Assembly (NCBI GenBank): GCA_003155565.1
Contig: PMDM01000064.1
Location: 145-10,944 of the forward strand
Length of the DNA: 10,800 nucleotides
Direction: 5' to 3'
Source: Methylococcaceae bacterium
Lineage (GTDB): Bacteria; Pseudomonadota; Gammaproteobacteria; Methylococcales; Methylomonadaceae
The notes beneath the pieces were generated by a model that worked only from the letters and a program-made list of their open reading frames with translations, ran no database searches and was not told the DNA's origin. Shown piece after piece: positions 2,741 to 10,752 of the stretch (the first letter of the stretch is position 1; the number at the start of each line of letters is the position of its first letter). The translations under genes were made by a program, and so were the position numbers.

Positions 2741-5476
2741 ATGGCCGATAACGTCGCCGAAATAATAACCCAAGCTGAGGCGTTAGGGTTTTTGGGCGTG
2801 ACCGCCGCCAAGTTGTTGCCTGGCCGCTGGCTATATTTCCGAGTTTCCGGCAATAAACAGCGCGATGCCGGCAGGATCAGGCTTTCCGAACTAACCCTCA
2901 AAAATGGGCGGCGCGTGTTCGTCGGTGTGATCGGGGTTTTTAATGGTGCGGACTTCCATTATGAAAAAATAGACCTCTCCAGCGACAAAGATAAGTATGG
3001 CTCGACCACCGAAGAACGGAAAAAAATTGCCGCGCAAATAAAAGCACAACGTAAGTCTTTCGAAGCCGCCGAACGTGCCAAGGCCAACAAAGCCGCGCTC
3101 CTGGCGGAAAAGTTTTATCACAATTGCAAACCTGCCATCCCCTTATCGGCTTTATACCTGTCAGACAAGCAGGTTAACGCTTATGACATCCGCATGACAT
3201 CCGATGGCGGGGCGGTCGTCGCAATCAGGGGGGGTGGGCGAATTGTCGCGCTCCAGTTTTTGCTGTCCAAAAACATCCCTGCCCACACGGAAAAAATCAG
3301 GAAAAACGGCGGCAACAACAAGAAAATCTGGCCTTTCGGCTGCAAGATAAAGGGCGGTTATCACTGGATTAGCGGGATACCTCGCCCTGGCGATGTGATT
3401 GTTATCGCAGAAGGTTATGCGACGGCGGCCTCAATCCATAAGGCAACGGGTTTGATCTGTGCTGTGGTTTTTTCGGCTGGCAACATCAAACCCGTCGTGG
3501 ATACGCTCCTGGGTCAATACCCCGATGTATACCTGCTAATTGCTGCGGACGATGACGACCTGAAGCAATGCCCTAGTGAGGATTGCCGCCACCGTTTCAT
3601 GCTCTCGCAGCAAGACGACCACTCCAATTGCCCTGAGTGCAAGCGATCATATGGCCGCAAAAATACGGGCAGGGATGCCGCCTTGAAAGCCTGTGGCGAT
3701 AGTGGCGGTAAGCGGGTGTCCTACACCCTCCCTAGATGGTCGGATAACGCCAAGCGGCTGCACGCTTGGGTTAAACACGGCAACAAGCGCACCGATTTTA
3801 ACGACCTGATGATTGACGAAGGCGATGCCGCCGTCCGGTTGCAGTTTGAGCGGTACATTGCCGACTTGCGGCTTAGGTTGCCTAGCCATGCCGAACGTGT
3901 AGCCACGCTACCGGCTCAAGATGCCGGCAAAACTAAGTATATGATGGAGGATTTACCAGCGGCCTTGTGGCGGTTCGTCTTGATTGCAGACGGTGGCGAT
4001 TCAGTTTACGACATGTTGTTACGAAAAGTTGTAAAAATGAAAGACGCGAAAAATCAGATGGCTGGCCGTGATGTTCGGACAAGATGGTATGCGGCGGTAG
4101 AGCTTGACAAGCGCGTTATCGCAATGGACGACATCTGTATGCAGTTTAGCCTTGAAGACATTGGAAAGCCAGGTAACCCTTGGTTTGGCTACCAGACGAG
4201 AGCCGTCCAAAATGATGAGGCTTGCAACCTTATTGCGCCGTTCATCAAAGATGTGATTTGCAACGGGAACGAAGAGCATTTTCATTTTTTGATGTGCTGC
4301 ATAGCCTTCCCAATTCAGAACCCAGGCGCAAGTATTGATATTGGGACTATCTTGCAGTCAGACGAAGGTAGCGGGAAAGGTCTTTTTGGAAAAATATTGT
4401 CGCGTCCATACGGGCGGCATGGGATTGTGCTTAACCAAAATGACCTTGAAGACCGTTTCAATGCCCACATGGACAATATCCTGCTGTGTGTTTTCGAGGA
4501 AGTCGGCGTCGGCGGCGGGAAAGATGGGCATAAATTAAAAAATCTGCTGAAACACATGGTTACCGGTGATACCGCGAGGATAAACCCCAAGCAGGTGAAC
4601 GGTAGGATGGTTTTAAACCGGACTATTTATTATTTTTTTACCAATGAGTTGCTCCCGTTTTTGCTCGGTAACCAGGCGCGACGATGGTTTGTGTTAAGGC
4701 AAAACGAGAAAATTAGCAAACTCGAAGCTACTAAGATCAAGGCTCAGATCATGAGTGAAGAAGGTGCTAATGCTTGGCACTACATGTTGGAAACATACCC
4801 AATGCAAGGTTTTACTGGTTATGAAGACCCACCGGAGACGGAAGCAAAGACCGAGATGCAGGAGATGTCAAAAGACTCCCCGATCAGGTTCTGGAATCAA
4901 TTGATAGCCGGAGAAATTCTTGAGATCGAAATCGACAAGCCCATTCTTAACCGTGACCTATACAAATTATTCTGTGTGTGGTGCAAAAACGAGGGGATAA
5001 ATAGCGTCCCTTCAATACAGTTTTTTATCCCGCATATAAAACACCAGGAAGGTGTTGCCCAAATGCGTAACACCTATCAAATTACCCTGGAACATACAGA
5101 TGGGTATGAAAATGGCCAGCCCGTGATTAGATACGAAACAATAGATTACAAAAGCAAGCCGTTCATCCAGCCCAAAAAATGCAAAGAGTTGCCGAATCCG
5201 CGTAATGGATTAGCGCCACAATTGGGTGTTGGGGGTACTTGCTTTTCGCAAAGCAATGGGGGATTATGCGAAGTCTTAGCAAAAAGCCCTCAAAATTTTC
5301 GTTTAGTCGCGTCAGTCGCGGCACTTCAAAATACAAAATACAAAGTCCCGCGACCGCTAGAAGCCACGGATTACGGGCTAGTCGCGTCAGTTGCGTCAGT
5401 CGCGGGGGGATATCCTCGTATGCGTGCACGAATATTTTTTTTATCCATACCCTATTTTTTTCTCTCTCGCGTATGA
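2741..5476 (+). CDS. Toprim primase / SF3-type (DUF5906-like) helicase, 911 aa
   Basis: This is a likely replication initiator of the element, combining primer synthesis and unwinding as in satellite and plasmid primase-helicases. Residues 1-90 are uncharacterised and a charged coiled-coil-like stretch covers 90-125. The Toprim domain spans about 215-360: acidic motif IAEGYATA (Glu224), LLIAADDDD (Asp270/Asp272), and TDFNDLM at 351-357. Inside it, between DDDLK and GRDAALKA, four cysteines (277, 282, 297, 300) form a putative zinc ribbon. The helicase spans about 500-660: Walker A DEGSGKG with Lys546, Walker B ILLCVFEE (Glu586/587), sensor-1 Asn635 (YFFTNE) and arginine finger Arg647/648. From about 815 the tail is low-complexity and encodes VASVA repeats, because the DNA there carries the origin-like array. 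No clear Shine-Dalgarno precedes ATG 2741. The protein appears intact. Confidence 0.88.
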   Translation: MADNVAEIITQAEALGFLGVTAAKLLPGRWLYFRVSGNKQRDAGRIRLSELTLKNGRRVFVGVIGVFNGADFHYEKIDLSSDKDKYGSTTEERKKIAAQIKAQRKSFEAAERAKANKAALLAEKFYHNCKPAIPLSALYLSDKQVNAYDIRMTSDGGAVVAIRGGGRIVALQFLLSKNIPAHTEKIRKNGGNNKKIWPFGCKIKGGYHWISGIPRPGDVIVIAEGYATAASIHKATGLICAVVFSAGNIKPVVDTLLGQYPDVYLLIAADDDDLKQCPSEDCRHRFMLSQQDDHSNCPECKRSYGRKNTGRDAALKACGDSGGKRVSYTLPRWSDNAKRLHAWVKHGNKRTDFNDLMIDEGDAAVRLQFERYIADLRLRLPSHAERVATLPAQDAGKTKYMMEDLPAALWRFVLIADGGDSVYDMLLRKVVKMKDAKNQMAGRDVRTRWYAAVELDKRVIAMDDICMQFSLEDIGKPGNPWFGYQTRAVQNDEACNLIAPFIKDVICNGNEEHFHFLMCCIAFPIQNPGASIDIGTILQSDEGSGKGLFGKILSRPYGRHGIVLNQNDLEDRFNAHMDNILLCVFEEVGVGGGKDGHKLKNLLKHMVTGDTARINPKQVNGRMVLNRTIYYFFTNELLPFLLGNQARRWFVLRQNEKISKLEATKIKAQIMSEEGANAWHYMLETYPMQGFTGYEDPPETEAKTEMQEMSKDSPIRFWNQLIAGEILEIEIDKPILNRDLYKLFCVWCKNEGINSVPSIQFFIPHIKHQEGVAQMRNTYQITLEHTDGYENGQPVIRYETIDYKSKPFIQPKKCKELPNPRNGLAPQLGVGGTCFSQSNGGLCEVLAKSPQNFRLVASVAALQNTKYKVPRPLEATDYGLVASVASVAGGYPRMRARIFFLSIPYFFLSRV

Positions 5477-5580
5477 GGCGTTTTAGTCCCGCGACTGACG
5501 CAACTAACGCGACAAGCGCATTTAGCGCGACTTACAGCGGTCGCGGGACTCCATACACACATTTCATTACTGCCGCGACT
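5305..5580. repeat. GTCGCG iteron-like array around an AT-rich core, candidate replication origin
   Basis: The hexamer GTCGCG occurs on either strand at 5306, 5315, 5349, 5381, 5399, 5490, 5508, 5526, 5540 and 5574. One-base variants lie at 5390 and 5499. Spacing is a multiple of 9 in each cluster: 5306/5315, 5381/5390/5399 and 5490/5499/5508/5526. The unit is AGTCGCGTC. A 26-bp inverted repeat (5381-5406 against 5488-5513, one mismatch) flanks an 81-bp core with T-rich tracts at 5431-5468. A second perfect 13-bp inverted pair is 5344-5356 with 5538-5550. The array runs through the end of the primase gene and past its stop, so it is not explained by protein coding. By analogy with satellite P4, where the primase-helicase binds iterons near its own gene, an origin is likely. 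Confidence 0.6.
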
Positions 5581-5940
5581 AACCACCCGATATATTACCT
5601 ATTACTTTCATTATTATTAATAATAGTTAGTAAAAACAATAAGATAAGGAAATAGATAAGAAAACAGGCCAAACCCTGGCTATCCATCCGGCTTTCTGTT
5701 TTGTTCACCGTTTGGGCGTTAGCGGGTCATTTGCCGCCAGAAATCGCCCCGCCGCTCCCGATTAAGAAAGGGGGAGGGGCAAAAAATCAAAGTAACAGAT
5801 TGATGTTTAGCGTCCAATGGGCGATTTGCCGTTTTTTGGGTTTTGGCTTATGTGGGCGGATACTGGCCTTTTACGGCCTGATTTACGCAAGCTGGGGTTA
5901 TGTTGGTCGGGTAAATTGCGAAACTAGGCAGGCTGGCAGA
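5581..5940. other. Non-coding stretch: AT-rich segment, then inverted repeats
   Basis: No convincing gene is seen here. Bases 5581-5660 are very AT-rich and continue from the iteron array. AAAACAG (5661-5667) and CTGTTTT (5696-5702) form an inverted repeat, with GCC/GGC inside. A GC-rich hairpin follows (GCCCC 5746-5750 with GGGGC 5776-5780, and CTCCC 5755-5759 with GGGAG 5772-5776). An outer 9-bp inverted pair, AAATCGCCC (5741-5749) and GGGCGATTT (5819-5827), encloses it. Neither hairpin carries a T-tract in the orientation of a terminator. They may belong to the origin. Confidence 0.35.
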
Positions 5941-6273
5941 TTAGTTGTTGACCGCCTTCCTAAAAACATCTGCAGCCCACTTGTTCAAAGATTGCCCTGC
6001 CAATTTAGCGGCGGTCATAGCGGCGGTATGGATTTCCGGCGGTATCCGCAACACCATCTTGCCGCTGGCGGGTTTGTTGGGCGGTTGCCCAAGTTTTTCA
6101 CACACGTCCAGGTAATCATCGACGGATTCCCTGAATGCGGCTTGCAGTTCGGCAACCGATTCGGCATGAAACCCTACAATGTCATTGATGCCGACCAAAT
6201 GTCCGACAAAAATACTATCCTTGTCGTCATATTCAATACGGGCGGAATAGCCCTTGTAAGTCATGGTGTTCAT
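5941..6273 (-). CDS. hicB: HicB-family antitoxin
   Basis: This 110-aa antitoxin neutralises HicA mRNA interferase and usually represses its own operon. Residues 4-60 form the partly degenerate RNase H-like fold typical of HicB (YKGYSARIEYDDKDSIFVGH, then GFHAESVAELQAAFRESVDDYL). Residues 70-106 form an Arc-like ribbon-helix-helix DNA-binding domain (GKMVLRIPPEIH, then a helix ending AGQSLNKWAADVFRKA). The start ATG overlaps the hicA stop as ATGA, so translation is coupled to hicA. With hicA interrupted at codon 6, coupling should be weakened, but the antitoxin frame itself is intact. It is the only operon in the central part on the minus strand. Confidence 0.85.
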   Translation of the reverse strand: MNTMTYKGYSARIEYDDKDSIFVGHLVGINDIVGFHAESVAELQAAFRESVDDYLDVCEKLGQPPNKPASGKMVLRIPPEIHTAAMTAAKLAGQSLNKWAADVFRKAVNN

Positions 6274-6524
6274 GGCGTTACCCCAATCTTGGTTAAAAAT
6301 TGCCTTGCGTCTATTACGCGGTATCTCAACGCTTCTTTTTGCGGGTGAGGACGATGGAAAAACACTTTTGCGCCAGCCAACTCAAAAGCGACCGAAGAGC
6401 CGTTGCCTTCTATTTTTCGGCAACCCAAGGCGATAAAAAGGCTTTCGATGAGCGACCATTCGATTGCCCCGTTTACGGGATCGGCAAAAATAGCTTGCAG
6501 GGTTTTTCAGTGCTTTTTATTCAC
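6270..6524 (-). pseudogene. hicA: HicA-family toxin with a nonsense codon at position 6
   Basis: The minus-strand frame from 6524 to 6270 reads GTG AAT AAA AAG CAC TGA and then continues as a complete HicA (mRNA interferase) of this subfamily. It includes KTLQAIFADPVNGAIEW, a helix IESLFIALGC, and the conserved histidine region VFFHRPHPQKEAL, ending TKIGVTP. HicA proteins of this type normally read (N/S)KHRKTL at the N-terminus, so the TGA (plus-strand 6507-6509) replaces an Arg codon, consistent with a single CGA to TGA change. No in-frame ATG follows, and the first later GTG lies past the middle of the protein, so restart is unlikely. The toxin is probably dead. The gene overlaps hicB by 4 nt (ATGA), as is usual for hicAB. 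Confidence 0.85.
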
Positions 6525-7672: not shown

Positions 7673-8258
7673 TGCAATATCCAAAACAACCAGCCTTATC
7701 ACCCATGCGACCAACGAATACAAGAACAAACTTGAAGCAGTGCGCCAACAACGCAATGAACTGCTCAATGAAATCGAGCTAATAAAAATCTCGCCGTTGC
7801 CATTGACTGACGTTATCGCAAGGGTTGAGGCGTTTGTCTCAAGCAACAACCTAATCACTGGCTTAGAAAGCTTCTTTTACCCCTACGAAACTAACAACCG
7901 TCTGTTAACGGTTGAAACCATACCCGACACCGCTCCGGTATATGTTGTTAATGACATGCTTGCAACTAAGTTTAGATCATCTGTTAATTTGGCGGGTGTG
8001 CTGTGCAGCCTTTTCGGTGACACCATCAAAAAAACCTTGGTTGACGCTGTTACCCAAGAAGCCGACTTTTATCCGCCTGGGCCACCATTGGCTGAACGTC
8101 CAGGCTTGATTAGCGGATTGCAGGAAAAAATACACAGCCTGGAAATCGAAGAAGAAGCCCTTATCTGTGAGGCTAAGGCGGTCGGTATTGGTGGAGTTTA
8201 TCGTCGTGGTGACATTAACCCTGAGATAGTTTTGATGATGGAGGTGGCGGATGCGTAA
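7662..8258 (+). CDS. Coiled-coil protein of unknown function upstream of the S49 peptidase (198 aa)
   Basis: ATG at 7662 is chosen because AAGGAGGG (7647-7654) sits 7 nt before it. An earlier in-frame ATG at 7611 lacks a ribosome site. Residues about 15-40 form a likely coiled coil (EYKNKLEAVRQQRNELLNEI), followed by ISPLPLTDVIARVEAFV. Coiled coil followed by a short proline-leucine turn and a helix recalls small proteins found in prophages, but I cannot name a family. A second helical stretch lies near 150-170 (LISGLQEKIHSLEIEEEAL). The stop overlaps the peptidase start by 8 nt. Tight coupling suggests it acts in the same process as the peptidase, for example as a partner or substrate; this is an inference. 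Confidence 0.75.
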   Translation: MANDAISKTTSLITHATNEYKNKLEAVRQQRNELLNEIELIKISPLPLTDVIARVEAFVSSNNLITGLESFFYPYETNNRLLTVETIPDTAPVYVVNDMLATKFRSSVNLAGVLCSLFGDTIKKTLVDAVTQEADFYPPGPPLAERPGLISGLQEKIHSLEIEEEALICEAKAVGIGGVYRRGDINPEIVLMMEVADA

Positions 8259-9252
8259 CCCCGCCCTATTTTCCCGTATCTTCAACACCCCCTTGATGAT
8301 CCAACCGTCCAAATTGGACGCTATCATTGCCGGGATCGGCGGCAGGTTTGGATTTGATAATAAACCGATGCCAGAAATGGCCTTGACCGCAACCGGGGGA
8401 CACAAGCAACCCGGCTATGAGGTGATCGGCAGCGTGGCGGTCATTGATATTTTCGGGGTTCTGGTTCACCGTGGCGGGTTTGATGCCAATAGCAGTTACC
8501 TCCTGGGTTATGACCGGATCGGCACGGCCTTCATTGCCGCCCTAAACGATACAGCGGTCAAGTCCATCCTGTTGCAGATCGATTCCCCAGGCGGTGAAGT
8601 GGCCGGGGCTTTTGAGTTGGCGGCCATGATTAAACAGGCTCGGGAAACAAAGCCCGTCAATGCCGTCATATCCAGCATGGCGACGTCCGCCGGGTACTTG
8701 CTGGCAAGCGCAGCGGGTGACATTGCAATCAGCCAAACAGGCGTGGCCGGTTCTGTCGGCGTGTTCTTGCGGCATGTGGACGTTTCCAAAATGGCCGAAA
8801 ATGAAGGCTTTAAGGTGACCTATGTTTTTGCCGGTGGCCATAAGATAGACGGCAATCCCCACGAACCTTTGCCCGATGCCGTTAAAGCCGACCTGCAAAC
8901 GGAAATCAACAAACTTTACGGCCTGTTTGTAAGCACGGTAGCCGATAACCGGGGATTAAAGCCCGGAACGGTCAAGGCACAAGAAGCCGCCGTATTCACC
9001 GGGCAGGATGCCATCAAGGCAGGGCTTGCCGACCGCATGGCCACGCCGGATGAAGTCCTGGCCGAAATGCAACGCGGTATTTTCCAAACTAGCAAAACCA
9101 ATAATGCCGCTGCAATGGCGCACCAAGAACAGCTTGAAGCGGTGGCGGGATGGGACAAGGCCATCAAGTCACTCAGCCCGCCAAAAACGGTAAGTGTCAG
9201 TTTGGCCGGGGTGATGGATAAGGCGAAGTGTTGGGTTGAAGGTCGTAATTAA
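8251..9252 (+). CDS. S49 (SppA / lambda gpC-like) serine peptidase, 333 aa
   Basis: This is a Ser-Lys dyad peptidase of the S49/ClpP-crotonase superfamily. In phages, such enzymes mature the prohead by cleaving scaffold or portal-associated proteins. ATG 8251 follows GGAGGT (8240-8245). Residues 60-115 contain the first core strand and oxyanion region (VAVIDIFGVLV, then ILLQIDSPGGEVAG). The nucleophile is Ser146 in SSMATSAGYLLASAA. SQTGVAGSVGVFLRHVD follows, and the likely general-base lysine is Lys198 (GGHKIDGNP). The domain ends near 272 with AAVFTGQDAIKAGLADRM. Residues 275-333 are an extra tail. No signal peptide or membrane anchor is seen, which favours the phage-type over the bacterial SppA type. 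It is unusual that no portal, terminase or capsid gene adjoins it. Confidence 0.9.
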   Translation: MRNPALFSRIFNTPLMIQPSKLDAIIAGIGGRFGFDNKPMPEMALTATGGHKQPGYEVIGSVAVIDIFGVLVHRGGFDANSSYLLGYDRIGTAFIAALNDTAVKSILLQIDSPGGEVAGAFELAAMIKQARETKPVNAVISSMATSAGYLLASAAGDIAISQTGVAGSVGVFLRHVDVSKMAENEGFKVTYVFAGGHKIDGNPHEPLPDAVKADLQTEINKLYGLFVSTVADNRGLKPGTVKAQEAAVFTGQDAIKAGLADRMATPDEVLAEMQRGIFQTSKTNNAAAMAHQEQLEAVAGWDKAIKSLSPPKTVSVSLAGVMDKAKCWVEGRN

Positions 9253-10192: not shown

Positions 10193-10423
10193 ATGAATAT
10201 CGATTACCACGACATCATTACCATCGAACCCGGCAAGAGAGCGGGTAAACCTTGTATCAGGGGGCTGCGGATTACTGTTGACGATGTGCTGGATTATTTT
10301 GCGGCGGGGATGACCGAGCAAGAGATTTTAGAGGACTTCGATTATTTGACCCACAACGACATCCTGGCTTGTTTTGCGTTTGCAGCCGATAGGGAAAGGC
10401 ATACCCGCGTTATCAGTGGATGA
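10193..10423 (+). CDS. DUF433 (VapB-like) antitoxin, 76 aa
   Basis: The protein matches the DUF433 pattern throughout: PGKRAGKPCIRGLRITVDDV, then LDYFAAGMTEQEILEDFDYL, then DILACFAFAADRE. DUF433 proteins are helix-turn-helix antitoxins paired with DUF5615 PIN-like toxins (the VapBC45 type). It would bind and inhibit the toxin and repress the operon through the palindrome upstream. A purine-rich AAAAGG (10184-10189) lies close to the ATG. The stop overlaps the toxin start as ATGA (10420-10423), so the toxin is made only when the antitoxin is translated. Confidence 0.88.
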   Translation: MNIDYHDIITIEPGKRAGKPCIRGLRITVDDVLDYFAAGMTEQEILEDFDYLTHNDILACFAFAADRERHTRVISG

Positions 10424-10752
10424 AACTGCTGTTTGATGAGAACCTATCGCCTAAACTCGTACAGACTTTAGCCGATATTTTTCCCGATTCGGCACATGTT
10501 GACCGTATCGGTTTTGGCGGCAGCCCTGATGACGACGTTTGGGACTATGCCAAAGTCAACGGATTTACCCTGGTAAGTAAAGATTCCGATTTTTACGATA
10601 AAAGTATGTTGTACGGACACCCACCTAAAGTGATATGGATTAAGCGCGGCAACTGCTCGAATCGGCAAATCCAATTGCTCTTGCGTAACAAGCTGGAGCC
10701 TATCAATGCTTTTGCTCAGGACGACCAAGTTTCGTTTATCGCCTTTACCTAG
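10420..10752 (+). CDS. DUF5615 PIN-like toxin (VapC-type), 110 aa
   Basis: This is a PIN-like nuclease of the DUF5615 family, the usual toxin partner of DUF433. The hallmark N-terminus MKLLFDENLSPKLV carries Asp6. GFGGSPDDDVWDYAK carries Asp39, and LVSKDSDFYD carries Asp55 and Asp57. These acidic residues form the metal site expected for RNA cleavage. The length is normal for the family and no lesion is seen, so unlike hicA this toxin appears active. Translation is coupled to the antitoxin through ATGA. As the last gene of the element side, it would stabilise the element in the chromosome. Confidence 0.88.
   Translation: MKLLFDENLSPKLVQTLADIFPDSAHVDRIGFGGSPDDDVWDYAKVNGFTLVSKDSDFYDKSMLYGHPPKVIWIKRGNCSNRQIQLLLRNKLEPINAFAQDDQVSFIAFT

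Follow-up and report, generated by a model that had tools for sequence, protein, structure and literature searches.

The 10.8-kb stretch of contig PMDM01000064.1 analysed here (the window) contains an array of GTCGCG iterons directly behind a gene encoding a Toprim-type primase fused to a DUF5906 helicase part. With high confidence, the block at 5303-5582 is considered to be the replication origin, or a required cis site, of an integrated element, either a phage or a phage satellite, at which the primase-helicase would itself bind. A sequence-only reading of the same DNA had already proposed an origin recognised by the adjacent primase-helicase, and this proposal is supported by the position and layout of the array, by its likeness to the origin of the element EcCICFT073 and to the cis replication region (crr) of satellite P4, by the arrays that follow related genes, by the joint change of the iteron word and the C-terminal domain of the protein, and by the match of the predicted fold to the SaPI5 and NrS-1 helicases. 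The window covers 10.8 kb of an 11.2-kb contig in a genome assembly of 495 contigs that is 80% complete.

Ten exact copies of GTCGCG (both strands) fall within 5306-5579, where 0.12 are expected, and the Poisson probability of at least ten in 276 bp is 1.8e-16, uncorrected for the choice of place. The whole window holds 13 copies versus 4.78 expected from dinucleotide shuffles, none of 200 of which attains 13. All of the ten exact and two variant hexamers reported in 276 bp by the sequence-only reading were recovered on recounting, and the 9-bp phasing it described was verified within the blocks of two and three copies (5303/5312; 5378/5387/5396; 5490/5499/5508), the two GTTGCG variants occupying two of these steps as the middle iteron of each inner block. 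Two of its details needed amendment: three hexamers, not two, lie elsewhere in the window (3245, 4399 and, on the minus strand, 4677), and the 26-bp inverted repeat (5379-5404/5490-5515) has two mismatches instead of one. Read from left to right, the array consists of two direct copies, one opposite, three direct, the core, three inverted, one inverted, one opposite and one inverted. The two blocks (5303-5404 and 5490-5582) thus flank a core with an A+T content of 58%, compared with 52% for the window. Scans of the window with Rfam (gathering threshold) and for tRNAs gave no matches. The features of the gene and the array are:

2741..5279, plus strand: primase-helicase gene, with its last conserved residues in another frame (5229-5279)
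Residues ~220-284 of the primase-helicase: Toprim_3, below the Pfam cut-off
Residues 538-641 of the primase-helicase: DUF5906 (helicase part)
Residues ~717-828 of the primase-helicase: winged-helix-like C-terminal domain
5303..5320, plus strand: left outer iterons, two at a 9-bp step, TTAGTCGCG TCAGTCGCG
5349..5357, minus strand: single opposite-orientation copy in the left spacer
5378..5404, plus strand: left inner iterons, three at 9-bp steps, the middle one GTTGCG
5405..5489, no strand: 85-bp core between the iteron blocks
5490..5516, minus strand: right inner iterons, three at 9-bp steps, the middle one GTTGCG, inverted relative to the left block
5526..5582: right outer copies at 5526-5534 (minus), 5537-5545 (plus, opposite) and 5574-5582 (minus)
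5344..5550: imperfect inverted repeat, arms 5344-5406 and 5488-5550, 63 nt, 81% complementary

The listed open reading frame (ORF) of the primase-helicase, whose predicted fold matches the NrS-1 and SaPI5 primase-helicases, extends from 2741 to 5476 and overlaps the array. The primases P0004 (61% identical) and P0005 (58% identical) terminate in LGKCVLAFRAAMGQYASKK and LGRWVLAFRAAMEDYK, and the window counterpart of this protein end, LGVLAFRKAMGDYAKS followed by a stop, is encoded at 5229-5279 in another frame (stop codon 5277-5279). Because the matching end sits in another frame, the part of the listed ORF that overlies the array does not encode conserved protein; the array therefore lies beyond the natural end of the gene, not across the primase stop codon as had been claimed from the listed ORF. 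The first 9-bp iteron (5303) starts 23 bp past the natural stop, which places the array immediately 3' of the initiator gene. The frame change is either a mutation or an assembly error, and the window copy of the element may be decayed. Five close homologues (P0002-P0006), of which P0002-P0005 share 58-78% identity with the window primase, are known here as proteins without flanking DNA, and the window primase as a single query retrieved no relative in genomes or viral contigs, so that alignment queries were needed.

Relatives were collected by protein searches of whole genomes, viral contigs, named genomes and phage records; each locus search gave the best 80 of more than 460 relatives, so the sample leans to the closest ones. 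An ORF reaching the helicase was present in 228 loci, 215 of which have a closed ORF and at least 350 bp downstream, and removal of near-duplicates left 148 representatives. The window's own entry in this set scores 3, as the listed ORF ends elsewhere than the natural gene; it is left out of the 147 relatives counted below and is replaced, for the statistics of layout, inter-block A+T and longest alternating run, by the window read from its natural stop. In 133 of the 147 relatives, one 7-mer occurs at least five times within 350 bp after the stop codon, compared with 6 of 673 other ORFs of at least 120 amino acids in the same loci. A stricter count of 129 of 148 was obtained with a filter that drops two-base words, which is not applied in the former figure. 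Homologues lacking an array had been named in advance as the case that would speak against an origin; most relatives do carry an array, with other words, and 14 fall below the threshold.

The arrays resemble that of the window in period and layout. A period of 9 prevails, with a period-9 sum of 1704 compared with 45 for gene segments; it is the best period in 95 of the 129 positives, followed by 12 (17 arrays), 11 (5), 8 (4) and others (8). In loci with both blocks, the median distance from the stop to the first copy is 11 bp. At least two copies in one orientation at the left and at least two in the opposite orientation at the right are found in 123 of 134 arrays, and the two-block order is perfect in 48, versus 1.06 expected from random orientation; the window array is not among these 48 owing to its opposite copies. 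The words themselves vary among elements (TGTGCAGGG, TGTGCGGGA, TGTGCCATG, TTGCCGGAA, GTATACCGG, TGTGTTGGG and many more), and no other examined locus has more than three GTCGCG downstream of the primase gene.

Similar arrays are also found in phages, including ones annotated with terminase genes. Among 14 phage records picked by hand from match lists, six of which also belong to the set of 148, nine have an array of at least six copies after the primase/helicase gene (S1, pAN, H4907, Lodos, PG1, Mcat4, Turba, SC_9 and PS3) and Mcat7 has four copies; M6, Haddon, Murka and TM26 have no array at this place. In Halomonas phage H4907 (L066:4774-5010), the layout is similar, with TCAGACA copies following each other at steps of 8 or 12 bp instead of 9. 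In phage S1 (L064:2454-2804), an annotated hypothetical gene, gp2, overlies the iteron array and may for this reason not be a real gene.

The sequence-only reading knew of no described origin with such a repeat, yet this kind of origin is already known from phage-inducible chromosomal islands (PICIs) and P4. The rep-ori of EcCICFT073, an element located here by gene order in the CFT073 record, is reported to support a plasmid (PMC6092414). As in the window, this origin lies directly 3' of the gene of a primase-helicase with DUF5906 and consists of two inverted iteron sets around a core; its GGTAGA iterons, set at 9- or 11-bp steps, follow an order close to that of the window (two, one opposite, three, core, two, one opposite, two). 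It differs in the iteron word, in the D5_N and Pox_D5 domains of its protein, whose C-terminus matches 1KA8 (a fragment of the P4 primase) by sequence, and in having no alternating purine/pyrimidine run longer than 10 within 300 bp. Another report places the PICI ori downstream of pri (PMC10111431), and a 2018 paper reserves this layout for PICIs. Relative to the PICI gene set, the window has a broken integrase, the primase and a head maturation protease (8251-9252), and the one candidate for AlpA that was scanned (2042-2389) gave no match.

The P4 alpha protein likewise combines primase and helicase in one chain, according to PMC7145576. P4 crr, with type 1 repeats of which some stand at 9-bp steps and in both orientations, lies 45 bp past the alpha stop; the repeat word is GTGAACA as opposed to GTCGCG, crr comprises two 120-bp direct repeats, and P4 has an additional, distant ori with type 2 repeats. 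When the window C-terminal domain was compared by sequence with P4 alpha and with the protein of the PICI, the signal was too weak to be of use, with a hidden Markov model score of 1.8 bits against alpha. A separate profile comparison gave a probability of 3.7%, and 1KA8 is absent among the fold matches listed for the C-terminal model. The helicases of Staphylococcus aureus pathogenicity islands (SaPIs) and of the staphylococcal cassette chromosome mec (SCCmec) bind downstream iterons through the C-terminal domain, as stated in PMC7581432. The same source gives the SaPI primase as of the archaeo-eukaryotic (AEP) type, in contrast to Toprim in the window, and SCCmec Cch2 differs in its five-base iterons; both come from staphylococcal hosts. 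The C-terminal region of the NrS-1 phage primase (6k9c) differs in that its structure was solved as protein alone. As far as searched, three points go beyond what is in print: ordinary phages carry this layout, the iteron word and the C-terminal domain tend to switch jointly, and a core with alternating purine/pyrimidine tracts and CTCGCGCGTATA recurs. No paper describing such arrays in phages was found in the open-access literature.

Comparison of iteron words with protein segments, carried out on the 110 sequences with at least six copies, suggests that the word and the part of the primase that probably reads it tend to change together. Similarity in word tracks similarity in the C-terminal domain more closely than similarity in the helicase core (partial r 0.34 vs 0.21, n=110 proteins); none of 500 permutations reaches 0.34, and the value for the N-terminal part given the core is -0.05. 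With the C-terminus controlled for, a correlation between word and core remains (0.21), so shared descent is only partly removed, and the protein pairs in this comparison are mutually dependent. For pairs whose cores share at least 70% identity, the two C-terminal segments show 66% and 59% identity in the 162 pairs with the same word, compared with 47% and 41% in the 89 pairs with different words; in the remaining protein segments, the two kinds of pairs are 5-8 points apart. Loci L072 and L026, with the words GTATACCGG and GTGTGCAGG, are 81-92% identical in five successive segments up to window residue 715, and then 57% and 42%. The same pattern is seen in L129 and L115 (76-100%, then 50% and 31%), and an exception is provided by L076 and L028, which have different words and C-terminal segments that are 83% and 69% identical. 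In L072 and L026, both tracts of the core are identical (TTACGTGACGCGCGAGAAAC and CTCGCGTATATG) and the iterons and the centre differ. The left spacer, between the outer and inner iterons, of L026, L070 and L072 contains a hairpin-like stretch (GCCGCGCCGCGCGTGGC in L026, GCCGCGCCGTTCGCGGC in L072), which is partly kept when the iterons switch.

By analogy with known relatives, the Toprim/SF3-like primase-helicase would bind the 9-bp iterons of both inverted blocks via its winged-helix-like C-terminal domain and assemble as ring oligomers on either side of the core, which the rings would then melt before unwinding outward and priming; the window copy may still function. Pairs in which both word and C-terminal domain have naturally switched offer a direct test of the recognition code of this initiator class, and would explain how related elements could coexist in one cell, each reading its own origin only. 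For a large set of phages and satellites, a rule for finding the origin suggests itself, namely to search directly behind the stop codon of the gene for the DUF5906 primase-helicase.

Alternatively, the iterons could form an operator array that binds the primase or another regulator and controls downstream transcription, with no origin involved. The block does sit between two genes and autoregulation by initiators is common, but this explanation appears improbable. Two inverted blocks around a core are how the tested EcCICFT073 origin is laid out, and P4 crr resembles this arrangement. The block also trails the primase regardless of which gene comes next: in S1 a hypothetical gene annotated over the array precedes the small terminase gene, in Lodos the next gene is hypothetical, and in the window it is HicB on the other strand. 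A cos or pac site for DNA packaging, suggested by the last iteron of S1 lying ~60 bp ahead of the small terminase gene, was rejected as very improbable given that this gene lies ~2.7 kb (Lodos) and ~1.9 kb (PG1) beyond the primase and that the array and the C-terminal primase domain vary jointly. There is just as little likelihood that the array is a low-complexity coding repeat of the primase tail, with 9 bp equal to three codons: the listed ORF reads VASVASVA over the array, but the natural primase end at 5279 is upstream of the array and in another frame, five of the ten exact copies lie beyond 5476, outside this ORF, and the arrays of relatives come after the stop codon, so this explanation was rejected too. 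Least credible, and also rejected, is a dispersed chromosomal repeat (REP-like or insertion-derived) that landed here by chance and would account for the palindromic arrangement: genome-wide dispersal, which the sequence-only reading had named as a refuting case, was not seen, the block being matched at one place in its own 80% complete assembly and nowhere in 100 relatives, and the paired-hexamer pattern is unenriched (16 genomic sites with at most one mismatch, including five in the array; the reversed control has 33).

Apart from the iterons, the origins appear to share a recurrent core. Across 81 cores measuring 55-110 bp, runs of at least 8 alternating purines and pyrimidines fill ~0.6 of the second, third and seventh eighths, where coverage in gene segments is at most 0.13. 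The middle eighths have an A+T fraction of 0.47-0.52 versus 0.33-0.39 in gene segments; across the whole inter-block stretch the excess is modest (0.43 vs 0.41). For the 76 cores that measure 60 bp or more, the mean length of the longest alternating run is 17.8 nt, compared with 6.6 when shuffled, and the run reaches at least 12 nt in 63 of them versus 3 of 76 gene segments. With at most one mismatch, CGCGTATA is found in 50 of the 81 cores (3.8 expected; 2 in gene segments). CTCGCGCGTA, with at most two mismatches, occurs in the right half of 44 of the 81 cores, compared with 7 in the opposite orientation, 7.4 in shuffles and 4 in gene segments. A left core motif as an inverted copy of CTCGCGCGTA was dropped, the orientations being tied (35 vs 32 of 81, at most two mismatches), and only the right-hand element is claimed because the left motif fits both orientations equally. 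The window core contains a 14-nt alternating run (5417-5430), an A+T-rich stretch (5431-5465, 80%) and CTCTCGCGTA at 5464-5473; its left half has four mismatches to the inverted core motif and does not fit it.

We advance only tentatively, and as somewhat doubtful, the view that these phage origins are two-layered, with an exchangeable address (the iterons and their C-terminal reader) and a fixed opening device. The GTCGCG array of the window would be one such address, and none of the other primase genes examined is followed by it. The opening device would comprise the alternating tracts that bracket the centre and the oriented element CTCGCGCGTATA; its reader might be a host factor or the conserved body of the helicase/primase, or it might act by DNA shape. 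L072 and L026 would then represent the clearest natural exchange, in which the opening device was kept and the address swapped.

Among the other genes of the window, the tyrosine integrase (196-1195) is split into parts in several reading frames with stops, and is a decayed gene or the result of assembly errors. The product of 8251-9252 is a Peptidase S49 of the phage head maturation protease family; neither a terminase nor a major capsid gene was recognised in the ORFs of the window that were scanned, which would fit a prophage remnant or a capsid-carrying satellite. Directly past the origin, a HicB gene (Pfam; ~5941-6515, minus strand) and the reading frame alongside, which we take to be HicA-like, likely form a toxin-antitoxin pair. 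A second likely pair (10193-10752) consists of a DUF5615 gene (Pfam) preceded by a short frame, presumably DUF433-like.

The 16-mer AGTCGCGTCAGTCGCG occurs in 13 viral-contig loci, mostly unlike the window. One of them (L017:2080-2382) carries 21 copies in 300 bp of a GTCGCG repeat with a 9-bp unit, which resembles coding low-complexity sequence; in the others, the densest 300 bp contain two to five GTCGCG. L023 alone looks origin-like: at 5341-5513 of this GC-rich viral contig, an array of AGTCGCGTCA with a GTACGCGCGCG tract follows an AAA_25 gene, not DUF5906, so that a similar word accompanies another helicase type.
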